Positions 27,701-35,091 of a DNA stretch of 53,794 nt are shown one piece after another. The position numbers and the translations under genes are program-made. The notes under the pieces were generated by a model that saw only the letters and a program-made list of their open reading frames with translations, made no database searches and had not been told where the DNA came from. Positions within the stretch are counted from its first letter, which is position 1; each line of letters begins with the position of its first letter. Source of the stretch: a virus; the IMG/VR virus record IMGVR_UViG_3300015360_000054, positions 1 through 53,794 of that record; one strand, 5' to 3'.

Positions 27701-29938
27701 GTAAGCAATAGCGAATGCAGGAGCATGAAGTTTAACGGTGGCCGCTCCAGTACCTAGAGAACCCGCGGTACCTTGTTTAGAGACAGTAAGACTCTGTACT
27801 TTAGCAGTAGTTACTAAGTTTTCAAAGTTGATTGTATAAGTAACGGAAGCTTGGTCGGCAGTCATCGACGAGTGGTTCGCAACAGAAGCTGCGCCGCTTA
27901 CTGTAGTAATAGTACCTGGTGTAACATTAGTACCACTAGCGGTTACTTTAAATTGTCCTACCGTAGGATTTCCAGAAGTAATATGTGTCAGCTCCGTAGA
28001 ACCTAAATAGGCTTCTATAACAGTTCCCGAGCCAGCATAAGAAGATACAGAACCAGTACTTGAAGCAGGCAATGTATGCGCTTCATTTGTTACAATTACA
28101 GAATAAGCATCTTGCCCATCTAAAGATTGTCTTAAAGCAAATACACTTATGGTATCATAAGCAAGTATAGTTCCACCAGAACTTTCAGCTACTCCAAGCC
28201 AGTAAGTTTTAGCTGGAGTAAACACACTAGAAGGTAGGGCCAGTACATAAGTAGGGTCGGAAGAAGATGCTTGAACAATAGTACCTGTGACGCTAGTCTC
28301 TCTAAAGGTATAGAAGGGCGTAGAAACATTCTGGGATACTGCTTCTAGTGTAATACTAGAAGGATTAGGTGTTAATCCTGCTGTGTTATAAATAATAGAA
28401 TAGTCTGTTGCTATAAGCTGTACAGTTATAGAATCTGATCCACCAGCACCTGGGATACCTGCTAGTGCTTTAGCAAATGATTGTACCTTTTGATAGATAC
28501 TTTCTGATCCCTCAGATCGCACTGTAACATCAAATACAATGTTACCACGATTTGCGGTCATTGCAGACAAGCTGGCTACAGTAGCAGTGTTTCCGCTACC
28601 AGTTATAGCCCCTGCGGTCACGTTTTCGGTATTAAATATACTAACTTTAAAAGACGGATCACTAGCTAACGTAGCACTATAAGGTATTAAGCTATTGCCT
28701 TTATAAACGCGTACTGTGGTACCGGATCCAGTCAATAGTGGATTAGTCCCATTACTATCCGCAGGTAGTGTATGAGCTTCGTTACTTAATAGAATAGTAA
28801 TTGCATCTGTACCAGGTTGAACACCAAAACAGCTTATCTGGTCACTAGCCAATATAGGGCTTACGTTTGAGATCTCTCTAATCCTTACTTCGATAACATC
28901 TGGCATTGCATCCGCAGTAGCTCTAGGTATATATGAGTAAGTATTAGTTGTACTATTTTGTACCGAGGATCCATCTACTAAGAATTGATAGTAGACTGTA
29001 CCTTCAGTGTTAAACGCTGTAGCTGTGATAGTAGCACTAGATGGATTTGGCGTGTCCCCATTACTAGTGTAAGAGAAAGCCTGCGCACTAGTAGTAGCAG
29101 TAACAGTTTTAGCGGTATTAGAGCTAGTTGTAACCCAAGCTAAGCCATTCCAAGTATAAATGTTATTATCAAGTGAGTTGATAATAACTTGCCCCTCGTA
29201 ATCCCCAGCTAAAGGAAGCCCTGCAGATATAATAACAGGAGTTAAGTTACTGGCATTTACGGTATAATAAGGCTCAAGAGTGTAAGCGCTTCCTACGCGG
29301 CCAACTAAGCCAAGTAGTGTATCTTCTAATTGATTTGGAAGATACGTAGTAGTATATACCTCATGGGCGCGATATACTTTTACTATGCCTACTGGAGTTC
29401 CAGTAAACGCAATAGCAGTACCTTGAGGAGTAGCCGATATACCAAAAGCAGAAGATGAAGGATCTACTACGTAGTAAACCCCATCTACGGATAGTTGGTT
29501 AGGGAGTGTACCTGTAGAAGTAAATAATATTTTTTGGCCTTGAGAAAGCTGGTTAGCTCCCTGAGTATATACCAAACTACCTGCAAAGCTAACCGTAGAA
29601 GTAAACGAAGAGTTTCTATCTACGGTTATGCTGTTGCTATCAATATAAGTATTGACAGTATACCAAGTATCATCAATCTTTACTATATTACCGGACAGTG
29701 TTAAAGAAACAAATCCCCCAAGACCTGTAGCATCTCTAACTAAAGAACCGTCTACTACTGCTTTCGTAGAAAGCAATACTAGGGGTGTTACGGGTGGGTT
29801 GCTAGAAATATCATGAAGATACCTAGCGGAGCCGTCCTCTATTTCGGTGAATAGTCGGAACCCAAAGTCCTTATCAAAAGCAAGATAAGCTACTCCAGGA
29901 TTTGGTATAGATGTAAGATTGATGCTTAAAAAGCTCAT
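24734..29938 (-). CDS. Giant repeat-containing tail fibre protein
   Basis: Encodes 1734 residues. Roughly residues 275-1400 hold five tandem units of about 215-230 residues, each beginning near a T-P-N-P-S or S-P/T-P type turn followed by a beta domain, and each with an N-E-A-H-T-L or D-N-D-N turn and a short K/R-x-G linker. Units 4 and 5 are the most alike. Then follows a short collagen-like stretch (RRGLQGTNGIIGSQG), a jelly-roll-like region, and a C-terminal segment (EGSITANALAVTSL) like the end of lambda J-type fibres. Ig-like bead-on-string fibres bind host surface glycans. Its start overlaps the J stop (TAATG). Confidence 0.78.
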   Translation of the reverse strand: MSFLSINLTSIPNPGVAYLAFDKDFGFRLFTEIEDGSARYLHDISSNPPVTPLVLLSTKAVVDGSLVRDATGLGGFVSLTLSGNIVKIDDTWYTVNTYIDSNSITVDRNSSFTSTVSFAGSLVYTQGANQLSQGQKILFTSTGTLPNQLSVDGVYYVVDPSSSAFGISATPQGTAIAFTGTPVGIVKVYRAHEVYTTTYLPNQLEDTLLGLVGRVGSAYTLEPYYTVNASNLTPVIISAGLPLAGDYEGQVIINSLDNNIYTWNGLAWVTTSSNTAKTVTATTSAQAFSYTSNGDTPNPSSATITATAFNTEGTVYYQFLVDGSSVQNSTTNTYSYIPRATADAMPDVIEVRIREISNVSPILASDQISCFGVQPGTDAITILLSNEAHTLPADSNGTNPLLTGSGTTVRVYKGNSLIPYSATLASDPSFKVSIFNTENVTAGAITGSGNTATVASLSAMTANRGNIVFDVTVRSEGSESIYQKVQSFAKALAGIPGAGGSDSITVQLIATDYSIIYNTAGLTPNPSSITLEAVSQNVSTPFYTFRETSVTGTIVQASSSDPTYVLALPSSVFTPAKTYWLGVAESSGGTILAYDTISVFALRQSLDGQDAYSVIVTNEAHTLPASSTGSVSSYAGSGTVIEAYLGSTELTHITSGNPTVGQFKVTASGTNVTPGTITTVSGAASVANHSSMTADQASVTYTINFENLVTTAKVQSLTVSKQGTAGSLGTGAATVKLHAPAFAIAYTAEGTTPNPSGTLTLTANAQNVADPWFMFTALPTITGFDETSFTDGTGTTDTKAFTIPTTYFGTPYKLRVGVSDGNQSELAFDTINVYGIRPGDDAIVGFLTNESHTVATAFDGTGATYTTAGGTFVIFDGVTNVTTLSVFAITGGTDGGASWTKVQNGLTFTINETTGVYSLSGASWTSDAESFTVTAVRAGVTITKTYSVSKSKAGQPVTQYYVTATSDVIRKNQAGVLSPSPITFSALSVTGNAAPVAYSGRFRVFKNGVLAYISAANESSYAYTPTTPATVIEVKVELYLAGGVVTLLDEETIQVVLDGTDAVTVSVDNDNLSFPGPSAGFSGINFGSATSTIRAYLGSTLLSYAASGANTFSCTQTSSGVTVAIGTGSGTTFVVPVPTGMSSVTALTDITVTIRNAAAVATTQQVRITYSLARAGNDTTVYWVVASADVIKRSEANALTPASILFTAFSAAGTGTPALYSGRFRISRNGIVVYTSAANETSYSYTPATPATLADVRVELFFAGGTTTLLDEELVTVVQDGTSTYNVSLDNDNSSYPADPTGFAGITFGAATSTIRVYRGSNQLSYNTSGASTFSCTQSSTGVTVAPGAVVGGNSFVVPVPTAMSANVGFTDVVVTIRDLAGNPVTQNVRINYSLARRGLQGTNGIIGSQGLVGTVGERGSKRFFATGTSWSDATANAAVTAAGVGNKVIADEVIISGTGFSQTRTWNGSAWILVTQVIDGNLLVHGSVVSDAIAARSITTAKLAVIGQDKIINPGASFESLGDWYNSNGSGGITFIADSTSPYGSNVARFVGSSLLFPTRQVPIMPNKQYTVRWFARVVGAPVGLMWIRCREVNASGSSISDSPLLQVSPAAVGNYEGFAGTTASWVEYVGKLTTTATTAFAEIHMYVNWGATFTSGETRVAGFRLEERIPGNLIVEGSITANALAVTSLSSVSAIIGTLRTATTGARTEIKDNLIEVYDASNVRRVRLGIWS
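25745..29100 (-). repeat. Five tandem ~650-700 bp coding repeats in the fibre gene
   Basis: Homologous landmarks recur at about 28800, 28110, 27410, 26760 and 26090: the D-A/G-I-D-A or D-G-T-D-A turn before the NEAHT or DNDN motif. The TPNPS-type turns recur with the same period. The last two copies (about 27050-26415 and 26400-25745) are the closest pair, sharing AYSGRFR/LYSGRFR, ANESSYAYTP/ANETSYSYTP, LLDEE, FSCTQ and YSLAR blocks. Boundaries are approximate because I aligned them by eye. Confidence 0.75.
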
Positions 29939-32900
29939 TATGTAATTATTCCATTTCTTATTCTAACTTGGGTACCTACTGGGGAAGTATAATCGTAGTC
30001 TTGGGGCATCTCTACCGCAGCAGCGTCTATAAGGGGAGGACGAGTAAACTGGCCGCCTCTTAATAGTTTTAGCTGAGCTGCTAGTCCTGGGGTTATACTA
30101 TCAAGTTGAACTATAACTTCAGCAACAACAGGACGAGAAACAGGTCCTTCTATGCTCCTGGATTGTAGTGAAAACGAATAAATCCCTAAAGAAGGCGTAT
30201 CTATTACGTAAGTAGTGGTAGATGCACTTAAATTAACTTCTACCTGGGCACCTTGTGGTGTTTGATATTTCAGTAAATATCCGTCTAAATTAGTTAGTTG
30301 TTCCTCTAAACCAGCCCTAAAACGAATTGGAATTCTCCAAGACAAGAATATTCTAGGAACTATAGCTGAGTTGGTGGAGTCGGAACCGCCTTGTCCTATT
30401 TGTAGCGCGGCAGTAAAGTCTCTTGGGGCCGGCATATCGCCATAACGGGGGGCATCTGTAAGGGGTTCTAACAGATAATCTTCGTTAATTAGGTCAAACT
30501 TAGCGTTAAAATGCTCTGCTGCTATTATGCCATATGAGTTTTTTTCTTCAGAGATAGATAATATTTTGTAATCTTTAGCAGAGCCTGCAATTACTTGACC
30601 CTGTGAATTCTTAGCTACTAGCGCCCATATCATTTCGTTGATGGGTGCAGCCGATAAAGCACTAAATAGGTTTAAAGTACTTTGATTTACTCCCGCAGTA
30701 TTACTAATAGCTCTTGTTTCCAAGTGTACATCTGGTGAAAATTGAAAACTTACCTGCTCCCCAGAATCATCTACTAACGTTTCAGCATCTGTTTGTGTAA
30801 ATGCTGGTAAAATATCGCCAAAATTATAATTAGTGCCGCCAATAACCGTTTGACTTTGTGTTAAATAGGTTGCAGGCCCTGGTACAACTACATGTACCTC
30901 ATAAGTTTCGCCCGAAACAATTTCTACAGGCTTATCTAGCACTATAGTTGTTGTTGTGCCGGATACAAGACGGCCTGAATATCTAACACGATGCTTATCG
31001 GCGTCTTGTACAGCAATTATATCTCCTGGTCTTAAGTAAATTGCATTTTCAGCAGTCTTAAAAGAGACAATATCCTTTTGCATCTTACCTGTGAGCATTT
31101 TCCAGCGGCCATAACGTACTGCTTGGCCTCTAGAAGTAGCCCCAAAGGCAACAACTTCATCAGTTAATATGCGATTATTAACAACAATGTCGTCAATGTC
31201 GTCTATTACTTCAATTCTTTGCTCATAAAAGTAATCTTTATCTGTATAAGTTACGGCTACCTGATTTGGACGAACTTTATTACCTGTTCCTTCGTAGCTA
31301 AAGAGACCATTTTCTATGTTTCCCTTAGTAAATGTATACACAGGCATAGCCGGTTTGTCTTGTACTCCAGTTAGTCTGCCGTCTAGCCAGTAAGGTATAG
31401 CTAGCATGGTAGTAAAGAAGTCTTTCATGACTTTATACGCTTCAGTACTTACTGTTAGGTACACATTACAGGTAAAGCGGGGCTCTAAACCACCTTCTCC
31501 ATCTGGTACTAGATCGTCTGAGTAACGAGCCATAGAATAAAGGGTATAATCGTCAATTTGATCCGAGGTGATCCAGTTACCTAGACCCCAACGTTTATTT
31601 AATAGTATTTCTCTAATAATCCAAGCAGGATTGTTACAATACGCTCTTCGGAAATTTCCATTCCAAGGTACATAAGTACTAGTTACTGTTCCGGCGGAGT
31701 TTCTAGTATAAGTAGCTACGCCATCCGCAGCTTCTTCTCTGGTTACATAATTTATTGGAACAGAAAATTCACCACCTAAGCAATGTGCGGATACTTCGGC
31801 AAAAGAACCTTGAAACTCTTGGCTATTATACTCTAATGCTAAGTAAGAACTAAATGGATAGTTTAATTTATCGCTTATAAAAGCCTGAACATAGGATAAG
31901 GTTGAATCACAAGTATGTTGAAACCCATTAACGTTAAAAGAATCTGGGGTGAGTTTTAATATTCTAACTCTAAAATCGTCAAATGGCTTAAGCTCATCGA
32001 CTGAGAATCTAAATTGATAATTAAAGTTAGAAGTATTGTTACTTTTTACAGTACCTGTAGTGTTCCAGCCTCGGGCCAGGTCTCCCGAAGCATGTACAAA
32101 GTATGCAGTAGCTCTAGAGGCTACTTCTGCATCGGAAGGGCCATACATAAGTTTACTTTGAAACTGGGCCGCTCCCGCTACCTTATAATCAAAATAAATT
32201 TGAAACACGCAACCAGCTGTTTCGTAAGCACTATCTTTAGCTTTGAACGCGTGTAGACCGTTAGGAAAAGCTAGATCTAAGGATATCTCATCTATCTCTG
32301 AAGGATTAGCAATATTAAGTCCTAGGGTCCCGGGCCCACTAATAATAGTCGTACCAGAAGGGGACGGAGTAGTAGGCTTAATTTTCTGCGCAATATTTTT
32401 GTCCCCCCAAAAACTTTTTAACTTAGCATTATGAATAGATACAGTACCCCCCGCCCCATTTGGTATAGAGGTTACTTGAAGTAATGGCGCATTTATTTGT
32501 ACCCCTGTAGTAGCACTAGTAAATCCGCTAGAGTTTTGCACTGGAGCCTGGTCTAAAGTACCGGGTCTAAAATGTACCTTAACATTTTTAAAATTAGTAG
32601 AAGTTGACCCGACGCCTAAGCCAACGCTACCGTTGCCCATAGTTGCTAGTACCGGAACCCAAGTTTCAACAGAAGCTGCTGGGCTATTTCGTATATCTGT
32701 TCTAGGAACTGTAGTATCAAAAGTTACGGAGTTTAATCCAAAACTGTTTGTCTCTGTAGCAAAAGTAAAGTGATCCCATGTTACTATTCCGGCGGTAACG
32801 CCAACAAAAGCATTACGGTTTAGCAAGGCTGAAGTAGTGCTAACTATTTGAATTACTTCTGCTTCTAACTCGCTGCCATTTGGCCCCGCACCCTGGATTC

Positions 32901-33273
32901 GTACTTTTTGATATAACCCACCGTCTCCTTCCGAGTTACTAGCTAGCATATCTGTAGTAAAAAATGCTGTAGTAGTAGTTAAACTATTTGACCCCTGAGC
33001 AATAGTGCCAGTTGCCAACTTAGCACCTCCCTTAAGTAAAACAGGAAATACTCCCGGTAACCCTAAAACGGCATAGCCTAGAAGTAATCCTGTTCCTGTG
33101 GAATTAACGTATACAGCAGCATCCGTACCTAAATTTGCAGCTTGCACTACATTATTAGATACTGGCGTTCTATTTAGGTACACCGAAGCTAAACCATTTT
33201 TTAATCTTATAGGACCTTCTCCTATAAGATTATAAACGATTGCCGTAGAGTTGTCGTAACGTTGGGTTGGCAT
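29938..33273 (-). CDS. Tail tip attachment / central fibre protein, lambda J-like
   Basis: Encodes 1111 residues, similar to lambda J (1132). The N-terminus carries NLIGEGPIRLKNG, the GEGPI element typical of J homologues. A hub-like middle follows (NPAWIIREILLNKRWGLG, TRGQAVRYGRWKML), then strands such as HRVRYSGRL and a fibronectin type III-like domain near residues 960-1065 (PAPRDFTAAL ... YLLKYQTPQGAQVEVNL ... YSFSLQSRS). It forms the tail-tip hub and host-recognition centre. It comes directly after the L, K and I homologues, as in lambda; only one small gene is inserted between I and J. Confidence 0.9.
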   Translation of the reverse strand: MPTQRYDNSTAIVYNLIGEGPIRLKNGLASVYLNRTPVSNNVVQAANLGTDAAVYVNSTGTGLLLGYAVLGLPGVFPVLLKGGAKLATGTIAQGSNSLTTTTAFFTTDMLASNSEGDGGLYQKVRIQGAGPNGSELEAEVIQIVSTTSALLNRNAFVGVTAGIVTWDHFTFATETNSFGLNSVTFDTTVPRTDIRNSPAASVETWVPVLATMGNGSVGLGVGSTSTNFKNVKVHFRPGTLDQAPVQNSSGFTSATTGVQINAPLLQVTSIPNGAGGTVSIHNAKLKSFWGDKNIAQKIKPTTPSPSGTTIISGPGTLGLNIANPSEIDEISLDLAFPNGLHAFKAKDSAYETAGCVFQIYFDYKVAGAAQFQSKLMYGPSDAEVASRATAYFVHASGDLARGWNTTGTVKSNNTSNFNYQFRFSVDELKPFDDFRVRILKLTPDSFNVNGFQHTCDSTLSYVQAFISDKLNYPFSSYLALEYNSQEFQGSFAEVSAHCLGGEFSVPINYVTREEAADGVATYTRNSAGTVTSTYVPWNGNFRRAYCNNPAWIIREILLNKRWGLGNWITSDQIDDYTLYSMARYSDDLVPDGEGGLEPRFTCNVYLTVSTEAYKVMKDFFTTMLAIPYWLDGRLTGVQDKPAMPVYTFTKGNIENGLFSYEGTGNKVRPNQVAVTYTDKDYFYEQRIEVIDDIDDIVVNNRILTDEVVAFGATSRGQAVRYGRWKMLTGKMQKDIVSFKTAENAIYLRPGDIIAVQDADKHRVRYSGRLVSGTTTTIVLDKPVEIVSGETYEVHVVVPGPATYLTQSQTVIGGTNYNFGDILPAFTQTDAETLVDDSGEQVSFQFSPDVHLETRAISNTAGVNQSTLNLFSALSAAPINEMIWALVAKNSQGQVIAGSAKDYKILSISEEKNSYGIIAAEHFNAKFDLINEDYLLEPLTDAPRYGDMPAPRDFTAALQIGQGGSDSTNSAIVPRIFLSWRIPIRFRAGLEEQLTNLDGYLLKYQTPQGAQVEVNLSASTTTYVIDTPSLGIYSFSLQSRSIEGPVSRPVVAEVIVQLDSITPGLAAQLKLLRGGQFTRPPLIDAAAVEMPQDYDYTSPVGTQVRIRNGIIT

Positions 33274-33276
33274 TAT

Positions 33277-33684
33277 TTATGCGTTTCCATCTGTAAGGGT
33301 AAAGGAAGTAACTGTAACTGTTCCTCCGCTAGCGATTGAAGTGTTGTTTAAAGTCATGTCACCGCCACCGCCGGTAGCTGTAATGTTTCCCTGAATGTGC
33401 TGAGTAGTACCGTTGCTTGCATATACTCGGAAGTGGCCTGCAGTTCCTGTAGCATCAGCTGAGGTATCCGTCCAAGACCCTGATAAAGCTTTAGTACCTG
33501 AAGCTGCTGCTGCCATCCAATCGGATGGTAAAGTCAGAGATGCTAGAACAGTTCCAGTGTCTGCATCGGTAATGTTTGTGGGCACCGTGCCACTACGTAT
33601 TCTTAATACAGCAGTAGTTCCTACGGCTGTTTCAACTGCGTCTAGTCGTGCGTTTCTAACGGCTACTGACATTTTGATAGGCAT
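33277..33684 (-). CDS. Small tail-region structural protein
   Basis: A 135-residue protein; ATG 33684 has AAGGAG nine bases upstream, and ATG 33672 is an alternative. Sequence motifs SVAVRNARLDAVE, LPSDWMAAAASGTKALSG, GTAGHFRVY and the Thr/Gly-rich C-terminus (TATGGGGDMTLNNTSI, TVTSFTLT) belong to a family of short proteins that, to my knowledge, recurs beside tail genes of many phages and prophages. Role unproven; probably a minor virion protein of the tail tip or fibre base. It lies between the gpI-like and J-like genes. Confidence 0.7.
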   Translation of the reverse strand: MPIKMSVAVRNARLDAVETAVGTTAVLRIRSGTVPTNITDADTGTVLASLTLPSDWMAAAASGTKALSGSWTDTSADATGTAGHFRVYASNGTTQHIQGNITATGGGGDMTLNNTSIASGGTVTVTSFTLTDGNA

Positions 33685-33822
33685 ATTTTATTTCTCCTTA
33701 ATTGATTTCCTACTAAAAATTATATTAAGTAGGGATACTTTAATTATTACAGAAGCTACTTGCTTCAGTACCGGCCGAGGCAATAGCCCGGCTATAAACA
33801 TTGGTGATGCCGGCATCTAGAA
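33685..33822 (-). other. Hairpin-rich intergenic segment after the gpI-like gene
   Basis: This stretch holds four inverted repeats in ~75 bases: GAAGC/GCTTC (33752-33766), ATAGC/GCTAT (33783-33795), the perfect palindrome GATGCC|GGCATC (33806-33817) and TCTAG/CTAGA (33816-33827). It is richer in G and C than the flanking intergenic bases. A 42-codon open frame (33816-33688) exists here without a ribosome site. It might be a structured mRNA element, or a remnant of coding sequence. Confidence 0.4.
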
Positions 33823-33891
33823 CTAGACGGTGCCAACAATGGTTGCCCCTAGCCCCTCTAGCGTAATAGCCAAGTCTCCAGCTATTTCATT

Positions 33892-35091
33892 CTAGGCAGT
33901 AATGCTTCCTACTGAACTGATATCTACACTGTCTAATGTATACTCAAGAGTTCCGATATAAGGTACATCACTCTGTGCAAATATGCTAATAGCTTCTAGT
34001 GTATTAGACGCCGATCCAATTACTCCGGCTGAAGCAAAGTCTACTAGAGCCTCTAAGGAAATACCCTCTAGAGTTCTAAACATAACAGCATTAATTGGTA
34101 CAGCCCCAATAGTAACAGGTTCAAAATTGTCCCAATCCACAGGCTCACTATATAAGTCTCTGAGTATGGATTGTCTATGAGCATTTAATAAATTAGAAGG
34201 AATTTCATGTGGTATTACGGGACTAATAAAGTGAACACCATTTTTAGGTGCAGTAGCTACCCAGGGTTTTCTATATTCATTGGCTGAGTACAATACTATA
34301 GAAGGATCGGGAGTAGTTAAGCCAGCACCTGTATAGGCATTTATAACATCATAGGATGGCTGAGTTAAAGTAGTATCATTTAGATTAGAAAATATAGTGG
34401 CTAAAACCCCACCAAAACCCCCAGATCCACCACCTACAAGATCAATGATACCACCAACTCCTGGCGCAAAGCCCCCTATGTGCCCAGCATAAGAAGATAG
34501 GCCTGGAACAATAGCAGAAGACATTGTGATGCCCCCAACAATCATTTCGCCTAGTAGTACGGGCACTGGGTTACCTGATGATACAACTTCTTGAGGGCCA
34601 TTAAACAAATAGTTCTCGTCGGCGTCAACATCCACGGAAGGATCTGGTGCCAAAAGCTGCTGGATACCTGTAATAGCTAGGTTAACTGCAGCAGTAAGGA
34701 TAACAGTGGTTATAGCCGTAACAGTAGCCCCGGTAACCGCAGCTGTTTTGGCTATAAGGGCGCCGGCCGCAGGATTCCAGAAAGCGACGGCTACAATAGC
34801 AATTGCTAGCAATATTTTAGCGCCACCAGATTTACTACCGCTAGGAATAGGTGTAATAACTATAGTATCGGCATCTAGGGGTAGGAACATTTCCTCCGCG
34901 TCAATCATAAGTTCACTACCTGATAGGATGGATAAGTCTCCACCCACATGGTAGTAGTCGATTAAATCTTGACGAAAGCCAGGATAATTTGCTTCAATAC
35001 AGGAGAATATATGGCCATAAGAGTTACCCCTTACTTCCCACTCTCTACCATATTTCTCTCCTAGGAATCCCTCTAGAATAACTCTCTTCAT
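33892..35091 (-). CDS. Tail assembly protein, lambda gpI-like, ending in an amber codon
   Basis: Encodes 399 residues, longer than lambda I (223). Residues 1-85 are the ubiquitin-like start of gpI (MKRVILEGFLGEKYG ... ADTIVITPIPSG). A hydrophobic Ala/Val segment (ILLAIAIVAVAFW ... AITTVILTAAVNLAI) and a Gly-rich middle follow. The C-terminus holds ~20-residue repeats built on L-E/D-x-V/I-x-x-x-x-x-G: LEGISLEALVDFASAGVIG, LEAISIFAQSDVPYIG, LEYTLDSVDISSVGS. The stop is TAG (33892-33894), and the same frame continues for 22 codons with another repeat unit before a second TAG at 33823-33825. gpI helps start tail tip assembly with gpK, gpL and J. It overlaps the K-like gene by 47 bases. Confidence 0.8.
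   Translation of the reverse strand: MKRVILEGFLGEKYGREWEVRGNSYGHIFSCIEANYPGFRQDLIDYYHVGGDLSILSGSELMIDAEEMFLPLDADTIVITPIPSGSKSGGAKILLAIAIVAVAFWNPAAGALIAKTAAVTGATVTAITTVILTAAVNLAITGIQQLLAPDPSVDVDADENYLFNGPQEVVSSGNPVPVLLGEMIVGGITMSSAIVPGLSSYAGHIGGFAPGVGGIIDLVGGGSGGFGGVLATIFSNLNDTTLTQPSYDVINAYTGAGLTTPDPSIVLYSANEYRKPWVATAPKNGVHFISPVIPHEIPSNLLNAHRQSILRDLYSEPVDWDNFEPVTIGAVPINAVMFRTLEGISLEALVDFASAGVIGSASNTLEAISIFAQSDVPYIGTLEYTLDSVDISSVGSITA

Follow-up and report, generated by a model that had tools for sequence, protein, structure and literature searches.

Where does the gpI-like tail assembly protein encoded at this locus end, and what is the sequence behind its stop codon? The gene lies on the minus strand of a 53,794-nt viral stretch (IMG/VR record IMGVR_UViG_3300015360_000054), the whole of which is referred to here as the window. 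Its open reading frame (33892..35091, 399 aa) ends in a TAG codon at 33892-33894 that falls within a repeat array, between SVGSITA and NEIAGDLAITLEG. Past this codon the frame stays open for 22 codons, NEIAGDLAITLEGLGATIVGTV, before it meets a second TAG at 33823-33825 and, one codon (TTC) later, a third at 33817-33819; these two in-frame amber codons form the minus-strand motif TAG TTC TAG (33817..33825). The sequence-only reading, which had placed both of its stops and the 22-codon extension exactly, in position and in letters, offered three explanations: that the first TAG is read through, that it is a recent nonsense mutation, or that a suppressor host translates it. We favour the second in the form of an ordinary nonsense truncation of an acquired modular repeat extension, the abandoned 3' part of which is decaying, and give this reading a probability of roughly three in four. 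Readthrough is unsupported by the results below, and suppression or recoding is contradicted by them.

The repeat does continue past the stop, as had been noticed from the letters alone. From 147 repeat units taken from 25 other viral loci, with the window left out, a position-weight matrix was made and run along the window in six frames, 18 residues at a time (107,476 positions). The post-stop unit GDLAITLEGLGATIVGTV (33826..33879, minus strand) ranks first among these 107,476 positions with a score of 27.6. It is followed by two pre-stop units on the same strand, GSASNTLEAISIFAQSDV (33964..34017; score 15.9, rank 2) and GTLEYTLDSVDISSVGSI, the last one before the stop (33901..33954; score 15.5, rank 3), and 9.7 is the highest score at any unrelated position. 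In 20,000 dinucleotide shuffles of the post-stop 66 nt a score of 15 was never reached, nor was 27.5 in 20,000 codon shuffles of the stretch. Among true in-frame coding windows, the 22 post-stop codons (33826-33891) fall at the 69th percentile in codon usage, a value that 0.1% of out-of-frame windows equal. Because of the profile rank, the shuffles and the coding-type codon usage, we conclude that the post-stop repeat is real and not a product of chance, and that the sequence behind the stop is a protein-coding repeat, now or until recently.

The repeat itself had been described as a unit of about 20 residues; the repeats are real, and comparison with other viral loci refines the unit to 21 residues with the pattern G-x-L-x-x-T-L-x-x-(V/L/A)-T-L-x-(S/A)-x-G-x-V. 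Adjacent units are 21 residues apart in 280 of approximately 370 spacings, 24 being the next commonest regular value within a range of variants from 23 to 26. The three top-ranked units of the window follow this profile at close to the family spacing, with steps of 21 and 25 residues, the 25-residue step being the one that spans the stop with a slightly longer linker. No Pfam family was found for the repeat, and PHROG returned a single weak match. AlphaFold2, run on an alignment of the arrays, returned a strand pattern that recurs along the array (pLDDT 80, pTM 0.77), and the array is accordingly predicted to form a regular, beta-solenoid-like arrangement of beta strands. Comparison of the repeat model with PDB structures gave no significant match; the beta-helix of gp5-type spikes matches the repeat weakly in sequence (E about 0.01), which is a lead only.

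The gene that carries the array is otherwise a recognizable member of the lambda gpI family (PHROG 32, tail assembly protein). Residues 1-194 match positions 4-195 of the 203-position profile (E=2e-34), the gene follows a gpK-like NlpC/P60 gene (35045-35782), and a gpJ-like central tail fibre gene (29938..33273, minus strand; PHROG 31, E=1e-109) lies downstream. It departs from the family type in bearing 21-residue repeats in a C-terminal extension and in having another gene inserted between itself and gpJ. This gene, P0003 (33277..33684, minus strand), encodes a phrog_3758 virion structural protein (PHROG E=3e-33), the usual companion of the arrays. In the relatives, whose best gpI matches are 30-56% identical, gpJ comes directly after gpI and usually overlaps it. 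Their gpI proteins align up to about residue 265 of the window's, leaving the extension with its degenerate repeats (33895..34300, minus strand; an approximate, alignment-based boundary) without a counterpart. No gpI extension, repeats or phrog_3758 gene was found at the gpI-gpJ junction among relatives in which that junction could be scored, several of the relative loci being copies of one contig or near-identical contigs.

Two relatives carry the repeats elsewhere. In L107 and L110 the repeats lie in the C-terminal part of gpJ, and a phrog_3758 gene comes next; of 40 gpJ loci, these two alone have a repeat array. In L107 (9685-9976 and 10657-11064) the gpJ C-terminal repeats are accompanied by a phrog_3758 gene 18 nt downstream, the only such gene in the 14 relative records searched, a set to which L107 but not L110 belonged. 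These arrays share with the window the repeat type, the companion gene and the phage lineage; they differ in that they are open and sit on gpJ, whereas the window's sits on gpI. Since gpI meets gpJ directly in the relatives and the repeats sit in gpJ in two of them, the window carries, between these two genes, an acquired module of repeat array and phrog_3758 gene that is fused to gpI. The sequence-only reading had named as grounds for refutation that relatives all lack the extra repeat. That absence was found in a stronger form, the gpI relatives lacking the whole repeat extension, and it indicates an acquired module and does not imply that the post-stop repeat is a chance one.

An acquired module also leaves room for the view that the array was never continuous, and that insertion or recombination of the module left behind a stop of foreign origin and part of an additional unit that was never translated in gpI. 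The module is indeed inserted at the gpI-gpJ site relative to the relatives, the post-stop unit outscores those before the stop on the profile (27.6 versus 15.5-15.9), as if separately derived, and the 25-residue linker over the stop is unusual (2 of approximately 370 spacings). Against this, the units on either side of the stop lie in one frame at a spacing within the observed range (24-26), and codon usage is coding-like up to the stop and past it. We regard such a junction as unlikely.

How unusual the interruption is can be judged from the other arrays. A repeat array was found near 58 of 80 sampled phrog_3758 loci, always on the same strand, and the arrays attach to differing upstream proteins (loci L002-L081, L107 and L110; in the window, array and companion gene span 33277-34017). 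Across 61 distinct arrays comprising 444 units, a stop or frame change between units occurs in the window's array only. Of the 51 arrays whose stop could be located, 49 extend at least 22 codons beyond the last unit; in the window 2 codons separate the last translated unit from the stop. The window thus resembles the phrog_3758-associated arrays in having the same unit and an adjoining companion gene, and differs from them in that its units are few, more degenerate than in related arrays, carried on gpI and interrupted by TAG. With its frame closed between units, it is a broken member of this group. The named phages Pan4 and Seuss have a phrog_3758 gene with no repeat array beside it. When phrog_3758 proteins were tested for a repeat unit at their own ends, this did not prove to be general.

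The uniqueness of the stop bears directly on programmed amber readthrough, by which a minor gpI with one extra repeat would be made, as in the extended coat protein of Q-beta. The Q-beta A1 type is a readthrough-extended phage protein, and the window resembles it in that a stop is followed by open in-frame coding sequence; the 22 codons behind the TAG are open, repeat-like and coding-like. It differs in that the open stretch is only 22 codons long, shows no conservation and no recognizable signal, and has more stops behind it, the in-frame TAG TTC TAG standing immediately after the extension. A stop between units is seen in only 1 of 61 arrays and the gpI relatives lack extension and repeats alike. 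The RNA fold at the stop is not significant (z = -1.2), and no Rfam match was found there. The base following the stop is A (UAG AAU), which is not among the contexts known to be leaky. Neither a conserved stop with an open extension nor a stimulatory context or RNA structure was therefore found, and programmed readthrough is very unlikely. We consider it similarly improbable that leakage at the amber codon tunes how long the repeat extension of this tail assembly protein is, with a small fraction of gpI gaining one repeat turn. A literature search on readthrough in tail proteins returned a general recoding review and nothing on the 21-residue repeat.

The in-frame TAG with repeat coding behind it would also be expected if the phage or its host read TAG as an amino acid. 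TAG is, however, the stop of 8 of the 44 genes in the window, including those for TerL, the tail terminator, SbcC and the gpK-like protein, and most TAG-ended genes stop at or near the end of their family match or where their relatives end. The genes of the window are intact under the standard code, and no tRNA gene, suppressor or other, was found in it. A recoded genome would lack TAG as a stop, contain it inside many genes and encode a suppressor tRNA, and this is not the pattern of the window. The sequence-only reading had already judged genome-wide recoding unlikely from the use of TAG as a normal stop, as in TerL; with TAG ending eight genes in the ordinary way and no tRNA gene found in the window, we consider it contradicted, and the chance that TAG is read as an amino acid here is slight in the extreme.

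The TAG might instead be an artifact. The record is an environmental viral contig, and the TAG, and perhaps the later stops, could stem from a minority variant or from an error in sequencing or assembly, the array being in reality open. One substitution is enough to create the first TAG, and an intact-looking unit stands behind it. There is no close relative for comparison: IMG/VR scans starting from gpI, gpJ or the extension turned up no close relative in which gpI is fused to the repeats in this way, no relative with this fusion came from a nucleotide search of phage records or a protein search of the extension, and a search of genome contigs with gpJ gave no relative. With no such relative to compare, the codon cannot be matched directly between phages, and its ancestral sense form goes unobserved. 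Error at the first TAG would leave the rest of the region to be explained, since TAG TTC TAG and the coding-like stretch in another frame behind it demand several independent errors within 80 nt. We think an artifact quite improbable.

That stretch in another frame lies on the minus strand at 33740..33823, where the -1 frame stays open for 27 codons, VLDAGITNVYSRAIASAGTEASSFCNN, up to a TAA at 33740-33742; only in this frame is the stretch open and coding-like. It may be the array's old C-terminal tail in a shifted frame; its codon usage is suggestive only, as values as high occur in 2% of out-of-frame and 15% of reverse-strand windows. The whole gap from the gpI stop to the start of the phrog_3758 gene measures 207 nt; no other same-strand gap of the late operon is as large. 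No terminator-like site was found in the gap behind the gpI stop, and a local promoter had no support above shuffles.

A nonsense mutation is favoured because the stop is unique among the 61 arrays, two more TAG codons and a possible -1 shift follow it, the array is degenerate and no readthrough context surrounds the codon. Under nonsense truncation, a module consisting of the 21-residue array followed by the phrog_3758 gene would have been acquired between gpI and gpJ, and the array would have become a C-terminal extension of gpI. A mutation to TAG between two units would then have shortened the extension, and the part behind it, with one intact-looking unit, more stops and possibly a shifted frame, would be a decaying, untranslated remnant. 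We infer that the events took this order, that the stop arose by mutation and was not selected for, and that the phage can do without the lost part. Termination at 33892-33894 would be ordinary, any readthrough amounting to background leakage that adds only 22 residues. A counterpoint to truncation is that the post-stop unit is the best preserved of the three, better than those before the stop, and that its codon usage is intact; a recent mutation would give this pattern, and so would continued translation of this part at a low level.

In-frame repeats behind a stop codon thus call for caution before they are read as a sign of readthrough, the stop here being most likely an ordinary one. The repeat module is a more useful by-product of the analysis than the stop itself, as a widespread repeat that joins the ends of different tail genes together with a small virion gene is a testable case of modular tail-protein growth.

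Two further observations concern the sequence around the arrays. The part of the gpI extension that precedes the repeats (34090-34300, about 70 residues, containing LRDLYSEPVDWDNFEP) has no detectable relative in the searched collections. In one group of phages (phrog_3758 loci L022, L031, L036 and L037), the protein encoded upstream of phrog_3758 has a C-terminus made up of another short repeat, of the ITEDTDTITSDGTA type, which suggests that different repeat types fill the same slot upstream of this gene.
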